Shown here: piece after piece, positions 8,178 to 17,100 of the stretch
Numbering within the stretch: position 1 is the first letter of the stretch
Layout of the letters: the number at the start of each line of letters is the position of its first letter
Assembly (NCBI GenBank): GCA_026706485.1
Contig: JAPOYR010000004.1
Span: forward strand, 372,001 to 436,000
Length of the DNA stretch: 64,000 bases
Direction: 5' to 3'
From: Chloroflexota bacterium
GTDB taxonomy: Bacteria; Chloroflexota; UBA11872
Position numbers and translations under genes: made by a program
The notes under the pieces: generated by a model
Databases searched by the model: none
What the model was told of the DNA's origin: nothing
The model's input: the letters and a program-made list of their open reading frames with translations, nothing else

Positions 8178-9347
8178 ATGCTGCCCCGCGAACGCTATCT
8201 GCCCGCCGCCGGCGAGGACATCGCCCAGTGGCATTCGGTCAGCTACATCGACGCCGGCCTCACGCGGCTCGAACGGTTTCAAACCAGCGGCGCGTCGGAC
8301 GAATACCACGAGTTCGAGCAGCGCACCTCACCCGACAACGGCCGCACCTGGACCGAGCGCGAAACCCTGCCCGGCATCGTGCAGGACCTCGACGGCGGCG
8401 GCATCGTCACCGCTCCGCCCGGCATTTACGTCGACCGCGCCCGCGACCGGCGCTACCAGATACGCATGCGCCGCATCTGGCCCGGCCTGCCGGCCTACAC
8501 CCATGCCTGGGGGTCCCACCGGCACCCGTGCAACGACCACGTCTTCGCCTGGGCTGACGACGAGCCCGAAACGCTGCTCCGGTATGAGGAAGGGCCGGAC
8601 TTCGATCCCGAGAATCCTTTCGATTCCGACTTCTGCGCCACCAACCGCGCCTATCCGGGCCAGGCCATCACCATCGCGCCCGACGGCACGGCCTATCTGC
8701 CCCTGGTGGCGCACCCTGCCGAGCTAGAGGCTGCGCACGCCAGCGGCGGGCTGGTCGTCATGCGCCGTGAGCCCCGGTCGAGCGAATGGCAGGCATCGAA
8801 CATCGAGTTCCTCGGGCCGGAGCGCTCCTCACGCGGGGTGCTGGAGCCGGAGGTCGCCGTGCTGCGCGATGGCCGTCTGCTCACCGTCGTCCGTGCCAGC
8901 CACACCGCCACGACCCCGGGGCGGAAATGGTTCAGCGTCTCCGACGACGGCGGCCGCCGCTTCTCGCCGTTTCAGGAGCTGCGCTACGACGACGGCTCAC
9001 GGTTCTATTCCCCGTCCAGCATCCATCGGTTCATTCGTTCGGAGCGCAATGGGAAGCTCTACTGGCTTGCCAACATCACCCCGGAGCCCCCTGACGGCAA
9101 CAGCCCGCGCTACCCCCTCTACATCGCCGAGATCGATGAGGATGGCCCGGCGGTGCGGCGCGACAGCCTGCGGCTCGTCGACGACCGCGGACCGAACGAA
9201 CCCGAGGCGCTGCAACTCTCGAACTTCAACATCCTCGAAGACCGCGAAACCCTCGACATCGAGATCTACCTCACCCGCCTCGGCGAGGTCGCCGACCACT
9301 TCTGGCAGGCCGCTGTCTACCGCTACCTCTTCTCGCCACCGACCTAG
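8178..9347 (+). CDS. Sialidase-like / BNR-repeat beta-propeller protein
   Basis: A protein of 389 residues with the composition of a six-bladed sialidase-superfamily propeller. Asp-box-like motifs are visible (SPDNGRTWTE near residue 51, SDDGGRRFSPF near 255). Other repeated strands include VAVLRDGRLLTVVR and FYSPSSIHRFIRS. There is no signal peptide or membrane segment, so it is predicted to be cytoplasmic. The classical FRIP motif of GH33 sialidases is absent here, unlike the protein at 35010, so the substrate is open; a glycoside hydrolase or sugar-binding role is inferred. It follows the DUF4287-like gene by 42 bases. Confidence 0.72.
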   Translation: MLPRERYLPAAGEDIAQWHSVSYIDAGLTRLERFQTSGASDEYHEFEQRTSPDNGRTWTERETLPGIVQDLDGGGIVTAPPGIYVDRARDRRYQIRMRRIWPGLPAYTHAWGSHRHPCNDHVFAWADDEPETLLRYEEGPDFDPENPFDSDFCATNRAYPGQAITIAPDGTAYLPLVAHPAELEAAHASGGLVVMRREPRSSEWQASNIEFLGPERSSRGVLEPEVAVLRDGRLLTVVRASHTATTPGRKWFSVSDDGGRRFSPFQELRYDDGSRFYSPSSIHRFIRSERNGKLYWLANITPEPPDGNSPRYPLYIAEIDEDGPAVRRDSLRLVDDRGPNEPEALQLSNFNILEDRETLDIEIYLTRLGEVADHFWQAAVYRYLFSPPT

Positions 9348-9466: not shown

Positions 9467-10858
9467 CTAGCCGCGTACGGTCATCGAATAGAGCCGGCGC
9501 TTCGAGTCCGCAATCGCGTCCGACCGCTGGATCTCGAAGTGGCGGCCGAAGGCCGACTCGAATTCGGGCTGCGTGTACCACGGGAATTCGTGGTTCCGCA
9601 TCGCCACCAGGCCAAGCACCATGGGATCGTCGGGCGGGACGAACTCCATGAGGAGATTCGGCCCCAGCGCCGCGAAGAACCGCGCCAGGCGGTCGAAGCC
9701 CGTGTTGTTGCCGATCGCCACGTGGTGAATCAGCGCCAGCGCCATCACCAGTCCGGCCGGCCCCCGCGCGGTCAGCGACGCGATCTCGCGGTTGTCCCAC
9801 CCTAGCGAGGGGCTGGGATTCGTGATGTCCGCCACGATTGGAAAGAGATTCGCTTCGCCAGCCGCCGCCATGCGCCGGTAGTTCAGGTCGACCGCTCCCG
9901 GATCGCTGTCGATTGACACCACGGGAACGCCCAGCGTCGCCGCAAGCCGGCTGAAGTCGCCCGTGTTGCCGCCGATGTCCCACACCGAATCCACCGACAC
10001 GGTCGCGAGGTGCTCGGCCACCAGGCGCTGCTTGTCCGCCAGGGCGCGGCCGGAATAGCTCGTCTGGTCGCCATATCCGGCCCAGGGCGTGTCGTCGGGC
10101 TTCCACGAAATCCGGCGCACCGTCGACTCCAGGCTCTCCAGCAAGGCGTCGAGCCGTCGCCGGCTCATGCGCCCGGCCAGGTCCGCGCGCTTCCGGCCGG
10201 CCGTGGCCGCGCGCGCCTGAGCCCGGCTGTGCAGATGGAGATGCATCAACAAGCCGGTCCGCAGCCGCGAGCGCCACGGCAGCAGCCGTGACGCCAGATC
10301 GAGCGGCAGGCCTTCCAGGTGGCGCTGCAGCAGGCCGCTCAAGCGTGCATCCGTGGAGGCCATCACCGCCAAAGGGGCCAGGAAGTGCTGGCAGAACTGG
10401 CGATAGCCCACCCACGGAAAGCCCGCCTCGTAGCGCTCGAACGACAACGTGTCGATCAGCGTCGGACGACCCGCGTGCAACTGGATGTTGCGCGCGCTCG
10501 CGTCCTTGAGCGACAGGCCGTGGTCCAGCGCGCGGCGCTGCACGCGCAAGGTAGCGAGCGCGGAGGCCTTCAGCTGGGAAAACGACCACTCGAACGGATA
10601 GGAGACGAACTTCAACTGCTCGGGACGGAGGACGGCCATGGCGCCGGGCTCCGGCGCCAGATCCAGGTCCACGGTCTCGTGGGGAATGAGCAGGCCGTCG
10701 TCGACCAGGCTGGCATACAGCCCTGAGTCCATCAGGGTGCGGAACGTCGACTCGTAGGACCGGTTGACCTGTCGCAGGAACTCGCCGTCGCGCCGGAACA
10801 TGAACCCCGCCGGATCGCGAAACGACCCTGGCAGGCGGGCCTCGGGGTCGGCGGTCAT
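9467..10858 (-). CDS. Class I SAM-dependent methyltransferase with kinase-like N-terminal domain (NoeA-like)
   Basis: A 463-residue cytoplasmic protein. The C-terminal part is a Rossmann methyltransferase with the SAM motif VWDIGGNTGDF (292-302), an acidic residue in SIDSDPGAVDLNYRR and ALIHHVAIG later. The N-terminal 270 residues contain LKDASARNIQ (117-126) followed by PTLIDTLSFE, which looks like the catalytic-loop Asp/Asn and metal-binding Asp of kinase-like folds. This arrangement resembles nodulation-related NoeA-type methyltransferases. ATG 10858 overlaps the stop of the upstream mini membrane gene as ATGA, so the pair is coupled. Next to an AlkP-type membrane gene, a role in decorating an envelope glycan or lipid is inferred. 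Confidence 0.82.
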   Translation of the reverse strand: MTADPEARLPGSFRDPAGFMFRRDGEFLRQVNRSYESTFRTLMDSGLYASLVDDGLLIPHETVDLDLAPEPGAMAVLRPEQLKFVSYPFEWSFSQLKASALATLRVQRRALDHGLSLKDASARNIQLHAGRPTLIDTLSFERYEAGFPWVGYRQFCQHFLAPLAVMASTDARLSGLLQRHLEGLPLDLASRLLPWRSRLRTGLLMHLHLHSRAQARAATAGRKRADLAGRMSRRRLDALLESLESTVRRISWKPDDTPWAGYGDQTSYSGRALADKQRLVAEHLATVSVDSVWDIGGNTGDFSRLAATLGVPVVSIDSDPGAVDLNYRRMAAAGEANLFPIVADITNPSPSLGWDNREIASLTARGPAGLVMALALIHHVAIGNNTGFDRLARFFAALGPNLLMEFVPPDDPMVLGLVAMRNHEFPWYTQPEFESAFGRHFEIQRSDAIADSKRRLYSMTVRG

Positions 10859-11124
10859 CCGTCGTCTCGACGGGCCTCCTCGGCCGCGGGGCTCGCCTCC
10901 GGCGTCGACCGGCGAAACCAGCCAATGATTCGTCCAACCACGTGCCGGAACCACAGCCGCGCTGATAGGAGCCCGCCGAGCACGGCCGCAATGATGATCT
11001 GGATCGCAAAGCTGCCGCTGCCGGGATCGATATAGCTGCGACCGCCCAGTTGAGCAACGACCAGCCGCGTGATCTGAAGGCCGAGAAGCAATATGGCCAA
11101 GCCGCCACTTGATCTATTCGGCAT
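10855..11124 (-). CDS. Small membrane protein with YIDPGSG motif
   Basis: An 89-residue protein with two hydrophobic segments, about residues 8-26 and 39-57, separated by the motif SYIDPGSGSFAIQ (residues 30-42), and a basic, proline/alanine-rich cytoplasmic tail. Short proteins with this YIDPG motif are known to me next to methyltransferases and AlkP/sulfatase-like genes in diverse bacteria, but no function is assigned. ATG 11124 was chosen because it precedes the first helix; the frame is open upstream. It is translationally coupled to the methyltransferase by a four-base overlap and divergent from the AlkP gene at 11333. Confidence 0.75.
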   Translation of the reverse strand: MPNRSSGGLAILLLGLQITRLVVAQLGGRSYIDPGSGSFAIQIIIAAVLGGLLSARLWFRHVVGRIIGWFRRSTPEASPAAEEARRDDG

Positions 11125-11332
11125 TGGCGCTCGCGACTCCTCGACGGTCAAGGTCAGTGGCTCCCCGCTATGATTTTGGACACGCGCGGCCCGCACTTCC
11201 GGCACACTGTGGACGACGCTCACCATAGGCGCAAGACCAAGACCTCCAGTCACAAGGCCTCGTGCTCCGTTTGGAGTGCGGAGTCTGCGTCGAATCGTGC
11301 TACCGGTGCCTGACATTCGCTGCTCGTGACCT

Positions 11333-13585
11333 GTGCTCGCTAAGTCCGTCTGGCTAGCTCTTGCCCTGGCCGCGCTCGGGCTTTTGGCGAGCTTAGGTCC
11401 GCGTGTGACATACACGGCGACCTCCAGCGGTGTGCCGTCCGGCGAAGTTTTGGGTGTTTGGCCTGGTTGGGGGGTGCAGCAGGATCTGGGGCAGATGCAT
11501 GGGCGCGTAGGGCATTTCCGCATCTGGGCCTCAGCCGTGCCAGGCGGCAGCGTGGCCACCCTGAACGCCTCATTGGTGGACGCCGTGACCAACGCGTTGG
11601 TGCGCCAGACTCGGATTGATCTCACTCCCGAATTCAGGCCCGTGCCACGCTCGCTCGTCTTTCCCGGATATAGCGTGCCGACGGGTCAGAAGCTGCGACT
11701 GCAGTTGCAGGTCGACACGGATGCAGCCAGCCACGTCATTTACGGGCTAGCCGATCCCCGGCCTGGGCTCGCGAACGCTACCTTCGGCGGCGATTCAGAT
11801 GCCGGCGGCCGGCCGATCGCCTTTGCACATCTGCAGAGCGGGTCTGGGCTGCGTGCGGCGATTGCAGGTGAACAGTCCCAGCTCGTGCGACTCGTGTTGG
11901 CGGCGGGATTGGGCCTGCTCGCTGTTCTCGCGCATCCACGTATGGCGGCGGTACTCGGCAAAGCTGGGAGGTTTGGACGGCGCCTGACCCGGCGACCCAT
12001 GGCTTGGACTGGGAAGCTCGTACAGCTCGGAGTCGCGCCCAACACTCCTGCTGCCGCGAGCGCGGGACGCGGTTTTCTTTCGGCGCCATGGTATCCGTGG
12101 GTGATCGCCGCCGTGCCGATACTGCATTTCCTGGCAAGCAACCGACAGCAGTTCGCCGTTATCGAGGCGATGGTCCCGCTCATGATTGCGCTGGTTGTTG
12201 TCACCACCAGCGTCGTTTGCCTCCGGCTCTTGCTCAGCGACTGGCACCGGCCGGCCGCGGTCGCCGCGGTCGCAACGGTGATCATCTTTGGCTATGGGCA
12301 CGTTCGCAATGCGCTGGATATGCGAGTTGATGAGTCGGTCCTGTTTGCGCTTGCCGTCGTGTTGCTCGTGGCATCCGTTGGCGTGGCGGCCCGCGCCGCC
12401 AACAACCTCCCGCGGTGGGCGCAGTTCTTCAATCTGGTTGCTGCGGTGCTGGTCCTTTTCCCCACTGCCAGCCTCGTTGGCGGTGCGGTCGCCTCACGAG
12501 ACAGGCTGCCGCTGACCGATGGGGCGGTACGCGTTGACCCAGCCGCCCATTTGTTTCCCACCGGCCTGCCAATCGCGAGCGAGCAGCGGCCCGACATCTA
12601 CTACATCGTGCTCGACGAATACGGACGCCACGACACGCTTGGCTCCTATGACAACAGTAGCTTTCTGCATGAGCTCGAGCGTCGGGGCTTTTTTGTCGCA
12701 TCCAAAGCCACGGGAAACTACGTCGAAACTGCATATGCAATTGCGTCGATCCTCAACCTTGACTACATCGACAATCTGAAACCTGAAGCCTCGGTAAACG
12801 AGGTAGACTGGCTCGAGATGATTATTCAATATCATGCGGTCGGATCGATCTTGAAACAACTCGGCTACACATACGTGCATCTTGAATCGGGGTATGAATG
12901 GACCGATGAAGCACCCCCGGCCGATGTTCTGGTCACATTCACACCTGAGGGCGTCCGCACCAGTACACGGGATGTTGGATTTCGCTACGAGGTATCGGTC
13001 GCATCACTTTTGACTGGACCCTTCGTGCGCGAGCTTGTCCACACAACTGCCCTAGAGCCGATTGTTGGGCATCATTTGGCTCCACCTCCTGGCCTTCCCT
13101 ATGGTTGGTATCACCCAGGACGGACTTTGCAAACATTTGAATTCTTGACCAATCCTATTGATGTGGAGCGACCGAAATTCGTATTCGCACACATCGTCAA
13201 ACCGCACGATCCTTTTCATTTCGATCAACACGGAAATATCTCCTCAGACACCAGCGCCTTCGGGGGATTTGATGATGCTCATGATCCAAGTGTACCCAGT
13301 GCGTATATTGGGCAGATGATTTACATCAACAATCAGATCATCAAGATGGTTGACGACATTCTTGACAACTATGATTCGAATGATCTCCCGGTAATCATGA
13401 TAAGCAGTGACCATGGACGGAAGGTAGGCGGCGGCGATGTTTTCAAGGTGTTAGCCGCTTATCATCTTCCCGACAATGGGGAATCGCCGATGGATGAGGC
13501 GATTATTCTGGTCAATCAGTTCCGGATCGTATTTGACCACTTATTCGGATTCAATCTTGGGCTACTTGAAGATAGAAAGTTCTAG
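11333..13585 (+). CDS. Membrane AlkP-superfamily (sulfatase/phosphotransferase-like) protein
   Basis: A 750-residue protein. An N-terminal signal anchor (residues 5-22) is followed by a beta-rich extracytoplasmic domain (about 25-165), several membrane helices (about 175-400), and a C-terminal domain of the alkaline-phosphatase superfamily. Core signatures are DIYYIVLDEYGR (421-432), FVFAHIVKPHDPFHFD, and SSDHGRK (about 691-697), which supplies metal ligands. A Thr/Ser nucleophile is not obvious at the usual place (DTLGSYDN). Relatives transfer or remove phospho-head groups or sulfate on envelope glycans. GTG 11333 is the likely start. The last third has clearly more A/T at third positions than neighbouring genes. 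Confidence 0.82.
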   Translation: MLAKSVWLALALAALGLLASLGPRVTYTATSSGVPSGEVLGVWPGWGVQQDLGQMHGRVGHFRIWASAVPGGSVATLNASLVDAVTNALVRQTRIDLTPEFRPVPRSLVFPGYSVPTGQKLRLQLQVDTDAASHVIYGLADPRPGLANATFGGDSDAGGRPIAFAHLQSGSGLRAAIAGEQSQLVRLVLAAGLGLLAVLAHPRMAAVLGKAGRFGRRLTRRPMAWTGKLVQLGVAPNTPAAASAGRGFLSAPWYPWVIAAVPILHFLASNRQQFAVIEAMVPLMIALVVVTTSVVCLRLLLSDWHRPAAVAAVATVIIFGYGHVRNALDMRVDESVLFALAVVLLVASVGVAARAANNLPRWAQFFNLVAAVLVLFPTASLVGGAVASRDRLPLTDGAVRVDPAAHLFPTGLPIASEQRPDIYYIVLDEYGRHDTLGSYDNSSFLHELERRGFFVASKATGNYVETAYAIASILNLDYIDNLKPEASVNEVDWLEMIIQYHAVGSILKQLGYTYVHLESGYEWTDEAPPADVLVTFTPEGVRTSTRDVGFRYEVSVASLLTGPFVRELVHTTALEPIVGHHLAPPPGLPYGWYHPGRTLQTFEFLTNPIDVERPKFVFAHIVKPHDPFHFDQHGNISSDTSAFGGFDDAHDPSVPSAYIGQMIYINNQIIKMVDDILDNYDSNDLPVIMISSDHGRKVGGGDVFKVLAAYHLPDNGESPMDEAIILVNQFRIVFDHLFGFNLGLLEDRKF

Positions 13586-13804: not shown

Positions 13805-13891
13805 TGGTGCCGAGGGCGGGATTCGAACCCGCACGAGCGGTTGCTCACAGCCTCCTGAGGACTGCGTGTCTGCCAGTTTCACCACCTCGGC
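13805..13891 (-). tRNA. tRNA-Leu (CAG)
   Basis: Reading the minus strand from 13891, a type II tRNA is seen: acceptor GCCGAGG pairs with CCTCGGC, the anticodon stem-loop CAGTC-CTCAGGA-GGCTG gives anticodon CAG, there is a long variable arm, and the T-loop is GGTTCGAATCC. CCA is encoded (13805-13807). It lies four bases upstream of the next tRNA on the genome map, in a two-tRNA cluster. Confidence 0.95.
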
Positions 13892-13895
13892 CGGC

Positions 13896-13970
13896 TGGTA
13901 GCGGAGGCAGGAATCGAACCTGCGGCCAAGGGCTTATGAGTCCCCTGCTCTACCTCTGAGCTACTCCGCC
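13896..13970 (-). tRNA. tRNA-Met (CAT), elongator type
   Basis: Acceptor GGCGGAG pairs with CTCCGCT (first pair G-U), the D-arm reads TAGCTCAG, the anticodon loop CTCATAA gives CAT, the T-arm contains GGTTCGATTCC, and an encoded CCA follows. The acceptor resembles the elongator methionine tRNA of Gram-positive bacteria. A lysidine-type tRNA-Ile2 is the alternative reading for any CAT tRNA; another CAT tRNA is at 22021. Confidence 0.92.
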
Positions 13971-14103: not shown

Positions 14104-17100
14104 TCAGCGCGGCGTCGGAGCCGCCCCCTTGGCGAGTCCACCGTCGTAGCCCGTCCGCTGGTAAATCGAGCCGGGCGCATGGTGCTCGATGGTCGCGATG
14201 CCGGACAGCACCTCGTAGGCCACCCCGGACTCTCCCACCACCACGCGCGCTAACGGTACGACCTGCTGGATCTCCACCAAGCCGTAGTTCGGGTCCGTGC
14301 CCGCCACGTTGAGCGTCAGCAGGTAGGTTTTCCCCGGCGTGAGGCTGGACGCCGCGCCGCCGCCCGCATCGCCGTTGATCTCGAGTCGCCGCGCGTCGAA
14401 TTCGATACGGGCGATCTGCTCGGGCGCCCGCAGCGCGACGGGACCCGGCCACCACCGCAGCGACGCAGTCCGCGGGTTCGGATTGTCCGGCTGCAGGTCC
14501 ACCCCGAGCGGACTGGCTTCGTAGAGGCGAAACTCGGTGCCTGTCGTGAAGGCGATGTCCTCCGGGTTGCGGTACCAGAAGTTGAGCACCGCGCGCTCGC
14601 CGTCCACGCTGCCGTCGAAGCCAAGGCCGGCGATGGGCGCATCCACGACCACCGCCGTGCCCGCGTGACGCGGCCGGATCTGGACAAATGGGGGAATCGC
14701 CGAGTCGGCGCTCAGGGCGAGTGCCCCGCAGTCGGGAACCGTGAGCTGCACGACCTGCGGCAGGCCGGTGAGCGTCGCGTCTACGGTGCCGGTCGTCACG
14801 GTGGATCCGGGCTCGCCCAGCAGGTGCAGATCGACCTCCCCGCCAGCCGACTCGCAGATGGTGCGCTGCGGCCCCGGCAGTCCCGCGCGGTCGGACCCGA
14901 TGCGCCACACGGACGACCACGCCGCCGCAAGGTCGTAGGCCCGCAGCCCATGACCTCTCCAAATCGCCTCGCTGCGCGACACGCCCAGCGCGGTCGGCTC
15001 CAGCGGCTCACGCAGAAGGACCACGCCGGTGTCCGGCCGATCGGTCAGCGTCACAACCTGGGGTACCCGAGTTGCGCGCTCGAAACGCAAGGGAATCGAG
15101 GATTGCAGCGTATCGTGGTCGGGGAATGCGCTCATCACGATCAACCCCTGCGCATGCGACATCGATCCCAGCGTGGTGACGGGCGCGTTCGGCGGCACGC
15201 GGCTGCGCAGGGTGCGATAGCTCGACGCCGCGACCTGGGGTGTGCCGGCGCCGCGAACAACCTCGAAGACCCGGTGTCGCGCGCCTGAGCTTGTGGCGGT
15301 CTCGGATAGCAGCCGGAAGTGCGCCGGATCGTCGAGCAGCCGACTGGCGGATGGATCGAGGTTTGCGGCCATGGCGTCGGTCAGGTGCAGGTGCGTGATG
15401 CCAAGGTCCGCGAGATCGTCGCGATTCAGGAAGCGAAGCGCGTCTTCGTAGGGCCAGGTGGTGTAGCCGAAGAGGAACATCTGATAGTCGCGGTGGGACA
15501 GAGGCGACGCAATGCCCGCGGCCGACGCGCTGACCGGCGCATGCTCAATGGAGGTGAGCAGGCGCGCCTCCGTAGGCAGGGAATCCTGCAGCCAGGCGTA
15601 GAACTCCCAATTCGCCTCGAGGTGCTCGCCGAAGTAAGCGCGATCCCGATAGTGATGTCCCGAGTCGTCCGCGGCTGGATCCCTGAGCTCGACATCGTTC
15701 AGCGCCAGACGGACGCCCGAGACTGCGCGCGGCAGGCCCATCGGCACCAGGATGACGAAGCCGATGAGCGCCGAGGCGACGAATTGGCGCCCTCGTCCTT
15801 CCAGCGCGCCCGTCGCGGCGCCCAAGGCCGCCAAAGCGCCGATGGTGGCAACGGCCACGGCCAGCCAATAGATGCGCGCGTCGTGCCACTTGAATTGCGA
15901 CTGCACCACCTCGGCTTCCAACAGCCCGAAGGCGCCGGCCGCTGCCAGCAAGGCCAGGCCCGCGCTTCGCTTCCGCCAGGCCGCGAACGCGCCGACCGCA
16001 ACGAGCGGGATGATCCCCACCTGCACGATGGCAGGCCCGGCCCGCTCGAAGAGGAGCAGATGACCAGCGGACCGCTCCCAGGCCACGCGCACCAGTCCAG
16101 CGGTACCGCCGCGGTCGAAGATCACATCGGAAACCGGGCCGCCAGCCAGCGCGACGAGCAGCGCGCTCCCAAGCAGGGCCGCGGCAAGATCGATTCGTTC
16201 GCGGCCGCGCAGCCAGATGAGGCGCCCGGCGCCCACCAGCGCCAGCGCCAGGCAGGTAAAGATCATGACCGCGGCGTCACCCAGCGCCAAGACCCCCGCA
16301 GCTACAGCCAGCAGCAGCATGTGCCGGCGCGCGCTTCCCGCATGAAGCGCCGCGGCGATGAGAACGACGAGACCAACGGCCAGCGGCCGCTGGAGCCAGT
16401 GCATCCAAATGAACGCCTGGCTAGGCGCGGGAGGGCTCGCATCGAAGGGGAGGCCGTCGAAGGACTCTGGGCGGTAGCCGAGAAATGTGGCTCCGTGAAA
16501 TAACCCCATAGTGGCGCCAATCCCAAGCGCCAACAGCAGCGGCGTGCCGGTGTCATAGGCAAGCCCGGCGACCCCAAGGACGAGCCCAACGATCAGGAGC
16601 GTCGAGAGAGCGTCGAAAGCCGTCCAGGGCAAGGCGCCCGTCGTGCTGATGATGGCGCCTGCCAGCAGATCGGCGCCGTAGTGGTAGCCAATCCCGGCAT
16701 CGACGCCGTAAGGGGTCACCGGCGGGAACTCCCCGCGGGCAAGACTGTGGGCGAGCGCCTAGTGCCAGGCGGGGGCGTCAAACGATTGGTGGGTCCGGTT
16801 CGCGTAGGCGAGGGCGAACACGCCGATGGCCACTACGAGCACGGCCAGCAACGCAGCCGTGGCCCCGCGAGGTCGCTCCCCTGGCGCGCTGACGCGTCGG
16901 GCGGCGACGAGGGCCACCGCGGATGGGAAGACCAGCCCGAACCAGGCCGAGGGTGCGCCCGGTATGGCATACGCCGAGAGATTGGTGAACAGCAGCACCA
17001 CCGCCACGCCGACAATCGGCGCGTAGAACGGCCAGACCAGGCGCGGCCGGTCCCGGAAGACGGCGTAGGCGATGAGCGCCCCGATGGCGGCGATCCACAG

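Follow-up and report, generated by a model that had tools for sequence, protein, structure and literature searches.

A NoeA/NoeB-type kinase-methyltransferase, YIDPG mini-protein and AlkP gene set in a Chloroflexota bacterium

Three neighbouring genes of a Chloroflexota bacterium raise the question of what a kinase-like methyltransferase, a very small protein with a YIDPGSG motif and a membrane enzyme of the alkaline phosphatase (AlkP) superfamily might be doing together. The genes lie in a stretch of 64,000 nucleotides (nt), referred to here as the window (contig JAPOYR010000004.1 of assembly GCA_026706485.1, positions 372,001 to 436,000). An earlier reading made from the letters of the window (the sequence-only reading) had proposed that they form an envelope-modification module, and all three are present between positions 9467 and 13585 as it described. 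On our analysis, the probable role of the gene set is to phosphorylate and methylate a sugar or lipid of the cell surface. As judged by alignment, the kinase-methyltransferase belongs to the family of NoeA from Sinorhizobium meliloti and Lani_1194 from Legionella anisa. The features of the locus are listed below, with lengths in amino acids (aa) and the evidence for each in brackets.

9467..10858, minus strand: NoeA-type kinase-methyltransferase, 463 aa (open reading frame (ORF) call, predicted folds, alignment to NoeA)
10109..10858, minus strand: predicted kinase-fold half, about residues 1-250 (fold and invariant residues)
9470..10096, minus strand: predicted class I S-adenosylmethionine (SAM) methyltransferase half, about residues 255-463 (fold and invariant residues)
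10855..11124, minus strand: YIDPG mini-protein, 89 aa (ORF, motif, hydropathy, substitution rates)
11125..11332, no strand: intergenic gap of 208 nt between the divergent genes, presumed site of both promoters (coordinates)
11333..13585, plus strand: putative membrane AlkP-superfamily enzyme, NoeB-like, of phosphotransferase or hydrolase type, 750 aa (conserved residues; PF00884 match below cut-off)

The kinase-methyltransferase and its small partner

For the kinase-methyltransferase, the ATG at 10858 (463 aa) was preferred as start over a GTG at 10954. The mini-protein likely starts at the ATG at 11124, which gives 89 aa, and its stop at 10855 overlaps the methyltransferase start by 4 nt (ATGA), in agreement with the coupling that had been proposed for this pair. 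The AlkP gene, with a GTG start at 11333, is on the opposite strand to the other two, and its 750-aa frame stands divergently beside them across the 208-nt gap, again as had been noted.

The N-terminal half of the large protein had been called kinase-like, and structure prediction bears this out. Folded with 64 relatives, the whole protein reached a predicted local distance difference test score (pLDDT) of 89.2 and a predicted template modelling score (pTM) of 0.90. The whole-protein VIA-align matches land on the methyltransferase half, and residues 1-250 were therefore folded alone (pLDDT 89.7, pTM 0.88). All 50 Foldseek matches listed for this half are protein kinases or kinase-like domains (E 1.1e-4 to 5.3e-4), and so are all 50 listed by VIA-align, which is a re-ranking of Foldseek's list and not a separate search (Z 8.9-10.0, 183-205 residues aligned, root-mean-square deviation 4.1-5.4); on these matches we reject the alternative that the half has no kinase fold. 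Residues R29, D119, N124 and D136 are invariant among 65 aligned sequences, with a D-to-N spacing of five that we take to be the spacing in protein kinase A (PKA). An Arg replaces PKA K72 while the equivalents of D166, N171 and D184 are kept, equivalence being assigned by order and spacing, not by superposition. The models thus support a protein-kinase fold for the N-terminal half, for which catalytic activity is predicted. By its predicted fold the C-terminal half is a class I methyltransferase: D294, G296, N298, G300 and D319 are invariant, and 6dcc, ChlM and NodS are tied at Z 17.5-17.7 in VIA-align. The alignments behind these counts (A2 and A3) comprise 64 of the 80 loci described below plus the window (L123 was omitted, having a stop within its match), and every full-length relative aligned carries the fused methyltransferase.

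Searches by sequence returned little. Pfam and NCBIfam scans left the kinase half unrecognised, and Pfam gave chance-level matches only on the 65 kinase halves (RIO1 in 2 of 65). In the Protein Data Bank (PDB), a sequence search with the whole protein found nothing useful, the kinase-half profile had no match at E up to 10, and the whole-protein profile had weak methyltransferase-type or other chance-level matches only, among them WbdD at E 0.2-0.3. WbdD is also the first Foldseek match for the whole protein; it is not among the 50 matches listed for the kinase half, which excludes nothing. A PHROGs search gave nothing useful, and a phage origin was rejected, since tblastn against a phage collection gave no match.

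A scan of one genome per species yielded at least 574 confirmed relatives, of which the best 80 were kept; these loci are the closest relatives, and counts made on them are not valid for the family as a whole. Titles of 36 of the 80 name neither Chloroflexota nor a class within it; among these 36 are WOR-3, Zixibacteria, Desulfobacterota, Krumholzibacteriota, Planctomycetes, Bacteroidetes, a gammaproteobacterium and the archaeon Methanoculleus. The nearest named relatives of the window locus (L052-L056) are Chloroflexota assemblies. Within 2.5 kb of the gene, the mini-protein is found at 65 of the 80 loci by strict motif and at 75 by a profile built partly from the same loci. Three of the misses (L080, L096, L126) have at most 144 nt of sequence upstream; the other two, L061 with a degenerate form and L103 with none nearby, are in genomes that have profile-positive copies elsewhere, adjoining AlkP genes. 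On the same strand, the strict motif occurs 64 times in the 82,624 nt that surround the gene at the 80 loci. The remaining 740,144 nt, read on both strands, contain it a single time, as L057's own, slightly more distant copy, and a chance motif is rejected on this contrast.

Two phylum samples, whose genomes are not mutually independent, agree with this. Among 201 genomes of the window's phylum we found 22 further full-length relatives, one broken copy and short partial matches, and the YIDPG motif stands beside all 22 full-length relatives (20 before, 2 after). The kinase domain is present in 24 of these genomes, with the mini-protein beside it in 24 of 24; G028 is the one genome where the mini-protein occurs and the kinase does not. 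Two weak mini-protein matches (G049 and G187, E about 0.006) were dropped, that in G049 being an internal stretch of a long open frame. A second sample, of 249 genomes from another phylum and centred on L129 (a Wenzhouxiangella), has the kinase in 7 and the mini-protein in 10; all 7 kinase genomes also have the mini-protein on the same contig, three of them (L236, L237, L238) in the order mini-protein, AlkP, kinase-methyltransferase. An AlkP gene lies within 3 kb at 50 of the 80 loci (profile score at least 40), at 39 of those closer than 150 nt; the profile was itself made from AlkP members at 43 of these loci, and the count leans on that. Among 20 nearer relatives of the window, an AlkP gene is within the fetched stretch in 14. 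Conservation of the gene neighbourhood, which the sequence-only reading had named as a check, is therefore seen across phyla, and these counts support the mini-protein as a near-constant partner of the kinase-methyltransferase. With the kinase fold supported as well, neither of the two outcomes that the sequence-only reading had named as refuting it was observed.

At several of the AlkP-negative loci the contig ends just beyond the gene. At many of the others, mostly from Anaerolineae, the pair is flanked by topoisomerase I (13 loci) and/or by a membrane protein of about 335 aa, which follows the methyltransferase in 15 Anaerolineae-type loci (L063, L077, L079, L082 and 11 more); the copy at L063 has no Pfam match. 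Partial copies occur as well. At L025 (G096:C96:24056-25026) the reading frame of the methyltransferase is broken and the adjoining mini-protein shortened, by joint decay or assembly error, and short kinase-methyltransferase fragments directly precede AlkP genes at L059:3075-3459 and L066:11861-11983, as if duplicated modules had lost the enzyme and retained AlkP.

The mini-protein had been described as a two-helix protein, fairly so: the window copy has a hydrophobic leader, continues through YIDPGSGS into a single transmembrane helix and ends in a basic tail. All 43 mini-proteins of alignment A4 (41 from the 80 loci plus those of the window and S. meliloti) share an unvarying Y, D, P, second G, S and Q. 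In 75 of 75 mini-proteins a transmembrane-like hydrophobic segment follows the motif and is itself followed by 15 residues of net positive charge, from which the motif is predicted to be outside and the tail inside; these calls use simple hydropathy and charge scores, not a trained predictor. In 31 of 75 the leader ends in a small-residue pattern directly before the Tyr, as if the mature protein started there. The ratio of nonsynonymous to synonymous substitution rates (dN/dS) is 0.156 between the window and L052, lies at 0.149-0.199 in three further relatives and is 0.087 between S. meliloti and a Rhizobium; read in frames 1 and 2, the window/L052 pair gives 0.85 and 10.7. The low values in the coding frame argue for a real protein under purifying selection, and a non-coding ORF is rejected. 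None of the 43 members scanned belongs to a Pfam or NCBIfam family above curated cut-off, and no family matches more than 3 of them even at E up to 1; the window copy reaches 19.3 bits to DUF6133 (cut-off 27) and has no NCBIfam match. At L122:7552-7983 the mini-protein is extended by a fused C-terminal segment that carries two Cys-x2-Cys pairs and resembles a zinc ribbon.

The AlkP enzyme and mini-proteins away from the kinase

The AlkP protein of the window, whose membrane segments were read from its sequence, matches PF00884 at E 3.4e-4, below the cut-off, and a PDB sequence search with it gave no match. Residues D428, T466, H620, H625, D693 and H694 are conserved in 47-51 of 51 proteins (D428 in 49, T466 in 48 with S in the other 3, H620 in 50, D693 in 51, H694 in 47). 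We take the conserved Thr to be the nucleophile site of transferases in this superfamily and the D and H residues to be of metal-binding type. The residues fit a phosphotransferase or hydrolase of the LtaS/EptA type and not a formylglycine sulfatase, a candidate rejected on the Thr, found in 48 of 51 at the site of the Cys/Ser of C/S-x-P-x-R, and on the sub-cut-off PF00884 match. One AlkP neighbour of a kinase-methyltransferase is annotated 'LTA synthase family protein'. Compared with shorter relatives, the window protein has about 250 extra N-terminal residues (11333-12100, plus strand; the alignment with L128 begins at residue 254). The genome of the window, a 3.37 Mb draft, has 9 PF00884 matches, and a second AlkP gene of the same family (G000:C2:253225-255456, minus strand; L197), 34% identical, has no mini-protein beside it by profile.

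Nine mini-protein copies that do not adjoin a kinase-methyltransferase were inspected. Seven of them adjoin an AlkP-superfamily gene, namely a PF01663 member in L192, a similar ORF, itself unscanned, in L194, AlkP genes in L193, L213 and twice in L214, and a PF00884 member in L235. The pair in L213, unlinked to the kinase, sits in a glycan cluster with NeuB and a cytidylyltransferase. A sulfotransferase (PF13469) is within a few genes in five of the nine copies (L192, L194, L233, L234, L235). At L233 and L234, which lack AlkP, an arylsulfotransferase (PF14269) is present instead, and a variant mini-protein (AYIGPGLG, motif YIGPG) with weak profile scores is encoded between the sulfotransferase and arylsulfotransferase genes. 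The mini-protein is thus found alongside both AlkP and the kinase-methyltransferase, and alongside each where the other is missing.

Beyond the three genes, tRNA-Leu and tRNA-Met genes (13805-13970, minus strand) lie immediately past the AlkP gene, followed at 14104-16719 (minus strand) by a gene for an 871-aa protein that has no match in Pfam and NCBIfam scans and is found again next to the module among close relatives (six loci, counting the window). On the other side, 8178-9347 (plus strand) encodes a sialidase-like protein of 389 aa with BNR repeats, which scores 31.0 bits to PF13088 (cut-off 31.4); three further loci carry relatives at the corresponding place.

A proposed mechanism and its rivals

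We propose that the locus is a NoeA/NoeB-type module decorating a membrane-bound glycan or lipid, with phosphorylation and methylation inside, the mini-protein as adaptor and AlkP outside, and give this reading a probability of about 0.45. On the cytoplasmic side, the kinase half would phosphorylate an acceptor, for which a sugar hydroxyl on a lipid-linked glycan is the likeliest candidate. The methyltransferase half would then methylate the phosphorylated product, perhaps on the phosphate, in the manner of WbdD and the Klebsiella O7 terminator. The mini-protein may cross the membrane, its YIDPG end facing outwards and its basic end, which contains Trp, facing inwards; it would hold the soluble enzyme at the membrane and couple it to the AlkP enzyme. 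Since the NoeA-type enzyme has no WbdD-like membrane-reaching C-terminal part, the mini-protein could serve in its place. The outer AlkP domain might transfer or remove a phosphate-linked group on the same, flipped product.

The proposal builds on observed folds, catalytic-type residues, gene linkage, co-occurrence and purifying selection on the mini-protein. From these we infer activity, substrate, adaptor role and order of steps, and the topology from hydropathy and charge only. While the idea of a module stands on fold and co-conservation, the envelope role that had been proposed with it is plausible, suggested by the membrane topology, by glycosyltransferase and other glycan genes present at some loci, by the place of NoeA and NoeB in a Nod-factor operon and by analogy with two proven O-antigen-capping kinase-methyltransferases. 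Several points weigh against the proposal. The Foldseek TM-scores of the kinase half to the query are modest (0.30-0.48), and the methyltransferase half is equally similar to many unrelated methyltransferases, as the tied Z values indicate. No AlkP gene is within 3 kb at profile score 40 in 30 of the 80 loci, and it is absent from the fetched stretch in two of five same-genus loci (L032, L035). By a crude rule, only 31 of 75 mini-proteins have a signal-peptide-like leader with a small-residue cleavage site, and many from Anaerolineae have a leader of 7 residues. To our knowledge, no member has a known substrate, activity or protein contact.

Other functions would draw on the same genes. The enzyme might make a modified phospholipid head group (e.g., phosphorylated and N- or O-methylated), which an LtaS/EptA-like AlkP enzyme would move onto a glycan outside while the mini-protein helps to hand the lipid over. 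The conserved Thr at the presumed nucleophile position (T in 48, S in 3), the adjoining AlkP genes and the LTA synthase annotation speak for such a route, which we nevertheless consider unlikely, given that the kinase half matched eukaryotic-type protein kinases, with choline/ethanolamine kinase absent among the matches listed, and that many loci have no AlkP gene nearby. That the mini-protein is itself the substrate, its invariant Y/D/P/G/G/S segment or cytosolic tail being phosphorylated and/or methylated and AlkP removing or exchanging the group, seems quite unlikely: such a role would suit the nearly one-to-one co-occurrence and the residues that never vary (Y, D, P, G, S and Q), but the motif is predicted to be outside, away from a cytosolic kinase, and mini-proteins also adjoin sulfotransferase and arylsulfotransferase genes where there is no kinase.

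A regulatory or secreted protein kinase system, with the AlkP linkage a mere passenger, would explain the eukaryotic-like kinase fold and the listing of relatives as putative effectors of Legionella (PMC9758233; here and below, statements on cited papers refer to the parts of their text available to us). We regard it as very unlikely, because the family is spread over many free-living phyla and a methanogen, the methyltransferase is fused in every full-length relative we aligned and in 94% of kinase-domain homologues (PMC9758233), and the AlkP linkage recurs across phyla.

Relation to NoeA/NoeB, Lani_1194 and other known systems

S. meliloti NoeA aligns full length with the window protein (34% identity over 468 columns, 219 bits), keeping the kinase-type residues, and NoeB aligns with the window AlkP over 340 columns at 21% identity. 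The genes noeA and noeB have reportedly been known as host-range genes since 1995. In the portions of the literature available to us, their products are called host-specific nodulation proteins, and a role in modifying Nod factors is put forward as a hypothesis. Between nodL and noeA of S. meliloti lies an 82-codon frame for the mini-protein, and the resulting order nodL-mini-noeA-noeB recurs in Rhizobium sp. T1470; in CP140953 the mini-protein is annotated as a 71-aa hypothetical protein overlapping noeA by 23 nt. A tblastn search with the S. meliloti mini-protein gave 61 plasmid records (57 Sinorhizobium, 3 Rhizobium, 1 Ensifer), genus counts equal to the rhizobial part of the 65 plasmid records with the kinase-methyltransferase, accessions not being paired individually. 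The other named plasmids inspected carry the mini-protein as well, namely those of Singulisphaera and Smac51, and of Novosphingobium with a variant motif. The AlkP gene is divergent at the window locus and downstream in the S. meliloti nodL-noeA-noeB operon, and unlike that operon the window locus shows no nodL or Nod-factor genes.

Lani_1194 has a kinase domain followed by a methyltransferase and about two thousand homologues; its family is homologous to NoeA, and its neighbour Lani_1195 to NoeB (PMC9758233). Among 816 neighbourhoods, the AlkP neighbour Lani_1195 is present in 38% and Lani_1193 in 65% (PMC9758233). Lani_1194 shares with the window protein the domain order, an R for the usual Lys, the kept D, N and D, and the AlkP neighbour (PMC9758233). 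The main text of PMC9758233, as far as available, does not state the identity of Lani_1193; the order acetylase-1193-1194-1195 matches nodL-mini-noeA-noeB, from which we think that Lani_1193 may be the mini-protein, though this could not be confirmed.

The sequence-only reading knew of no described function for the trio. Two of its members are less novel than that, since the kinase-methyltransferase and its AlkP neighbour were already in print in 2022 (PMC9758233), with noeA/noeB of 1995 as their forerunners; the new element is the evidence that the mini-protein is a near-constant partner, and for the other company it keeps. The title of Ardourel 1995 describes a three-gene operon without the mini-protein. 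The literature searched held no description of it, most subscription papers, including the 1995 one, being outside coverage; a search for 'YLDPG' found no paper, and a 'YIDPG' match was rejected as a coincidental string in a phospholipase.

NoeA and NoeB are thereby tied to a module that occurs across many phyla and in a methanogen, and a small co-conserved gene inside the nodL-noeA-noeB operon could have been overlooked by mutant studies. More broadly, and doubtfully, the mini-protein may be the common membrane subunit of an unrecognised class of two-sided systems, in which an inside enzyme would add phosphate (kinase-methyltransferase) or sulfate (sulfotransferase), an outside AlkP or arylsulfotransferase would move or remove the group, and the mini-protein would couple both, being also the missing fourth component of the nodL-noeA-noeB operon. 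If true, a large group of small proteins now labelled 'hypothetical' would thereby gain a function.

Two further systems bear comparison. With LtaS/EptA-type transferases the window AlkP shares membrane segments, an AlkP domain, the conserved Thr and metal-type D/H residues; it differs in its 750-aa length with the N-terminal extension and in having no PDB sequence match. WbdD of E. coli O9a (PMC3482155) and ORF6 of Klebsiella O7 (PMC11231755) are proven to phosphorylate a glycan end and then to methylate the phosphate. WbdD is discussed in PMC9758233 against another Legionella family, Lcin_0519, the two being termed remotely related. Like the window protein, WbdD and ORF6 combine kinase and methyltransferase in one chain; in WbdD the methyltransferase precedes the kinase, the reverse of the order in the window. 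WbdD reaches the membrane via its own C-terminal region (PMC11231755). A long C-terminal coiled coil marks WbdD-type terminators, whereas the window model has no coiled-coil ruler and ends in a strand at 455-461 with no long C-terminal helix. Unlike WbdD and ORF6, the window locus encodes a separate membrane mini-protein and an AlkP partner.

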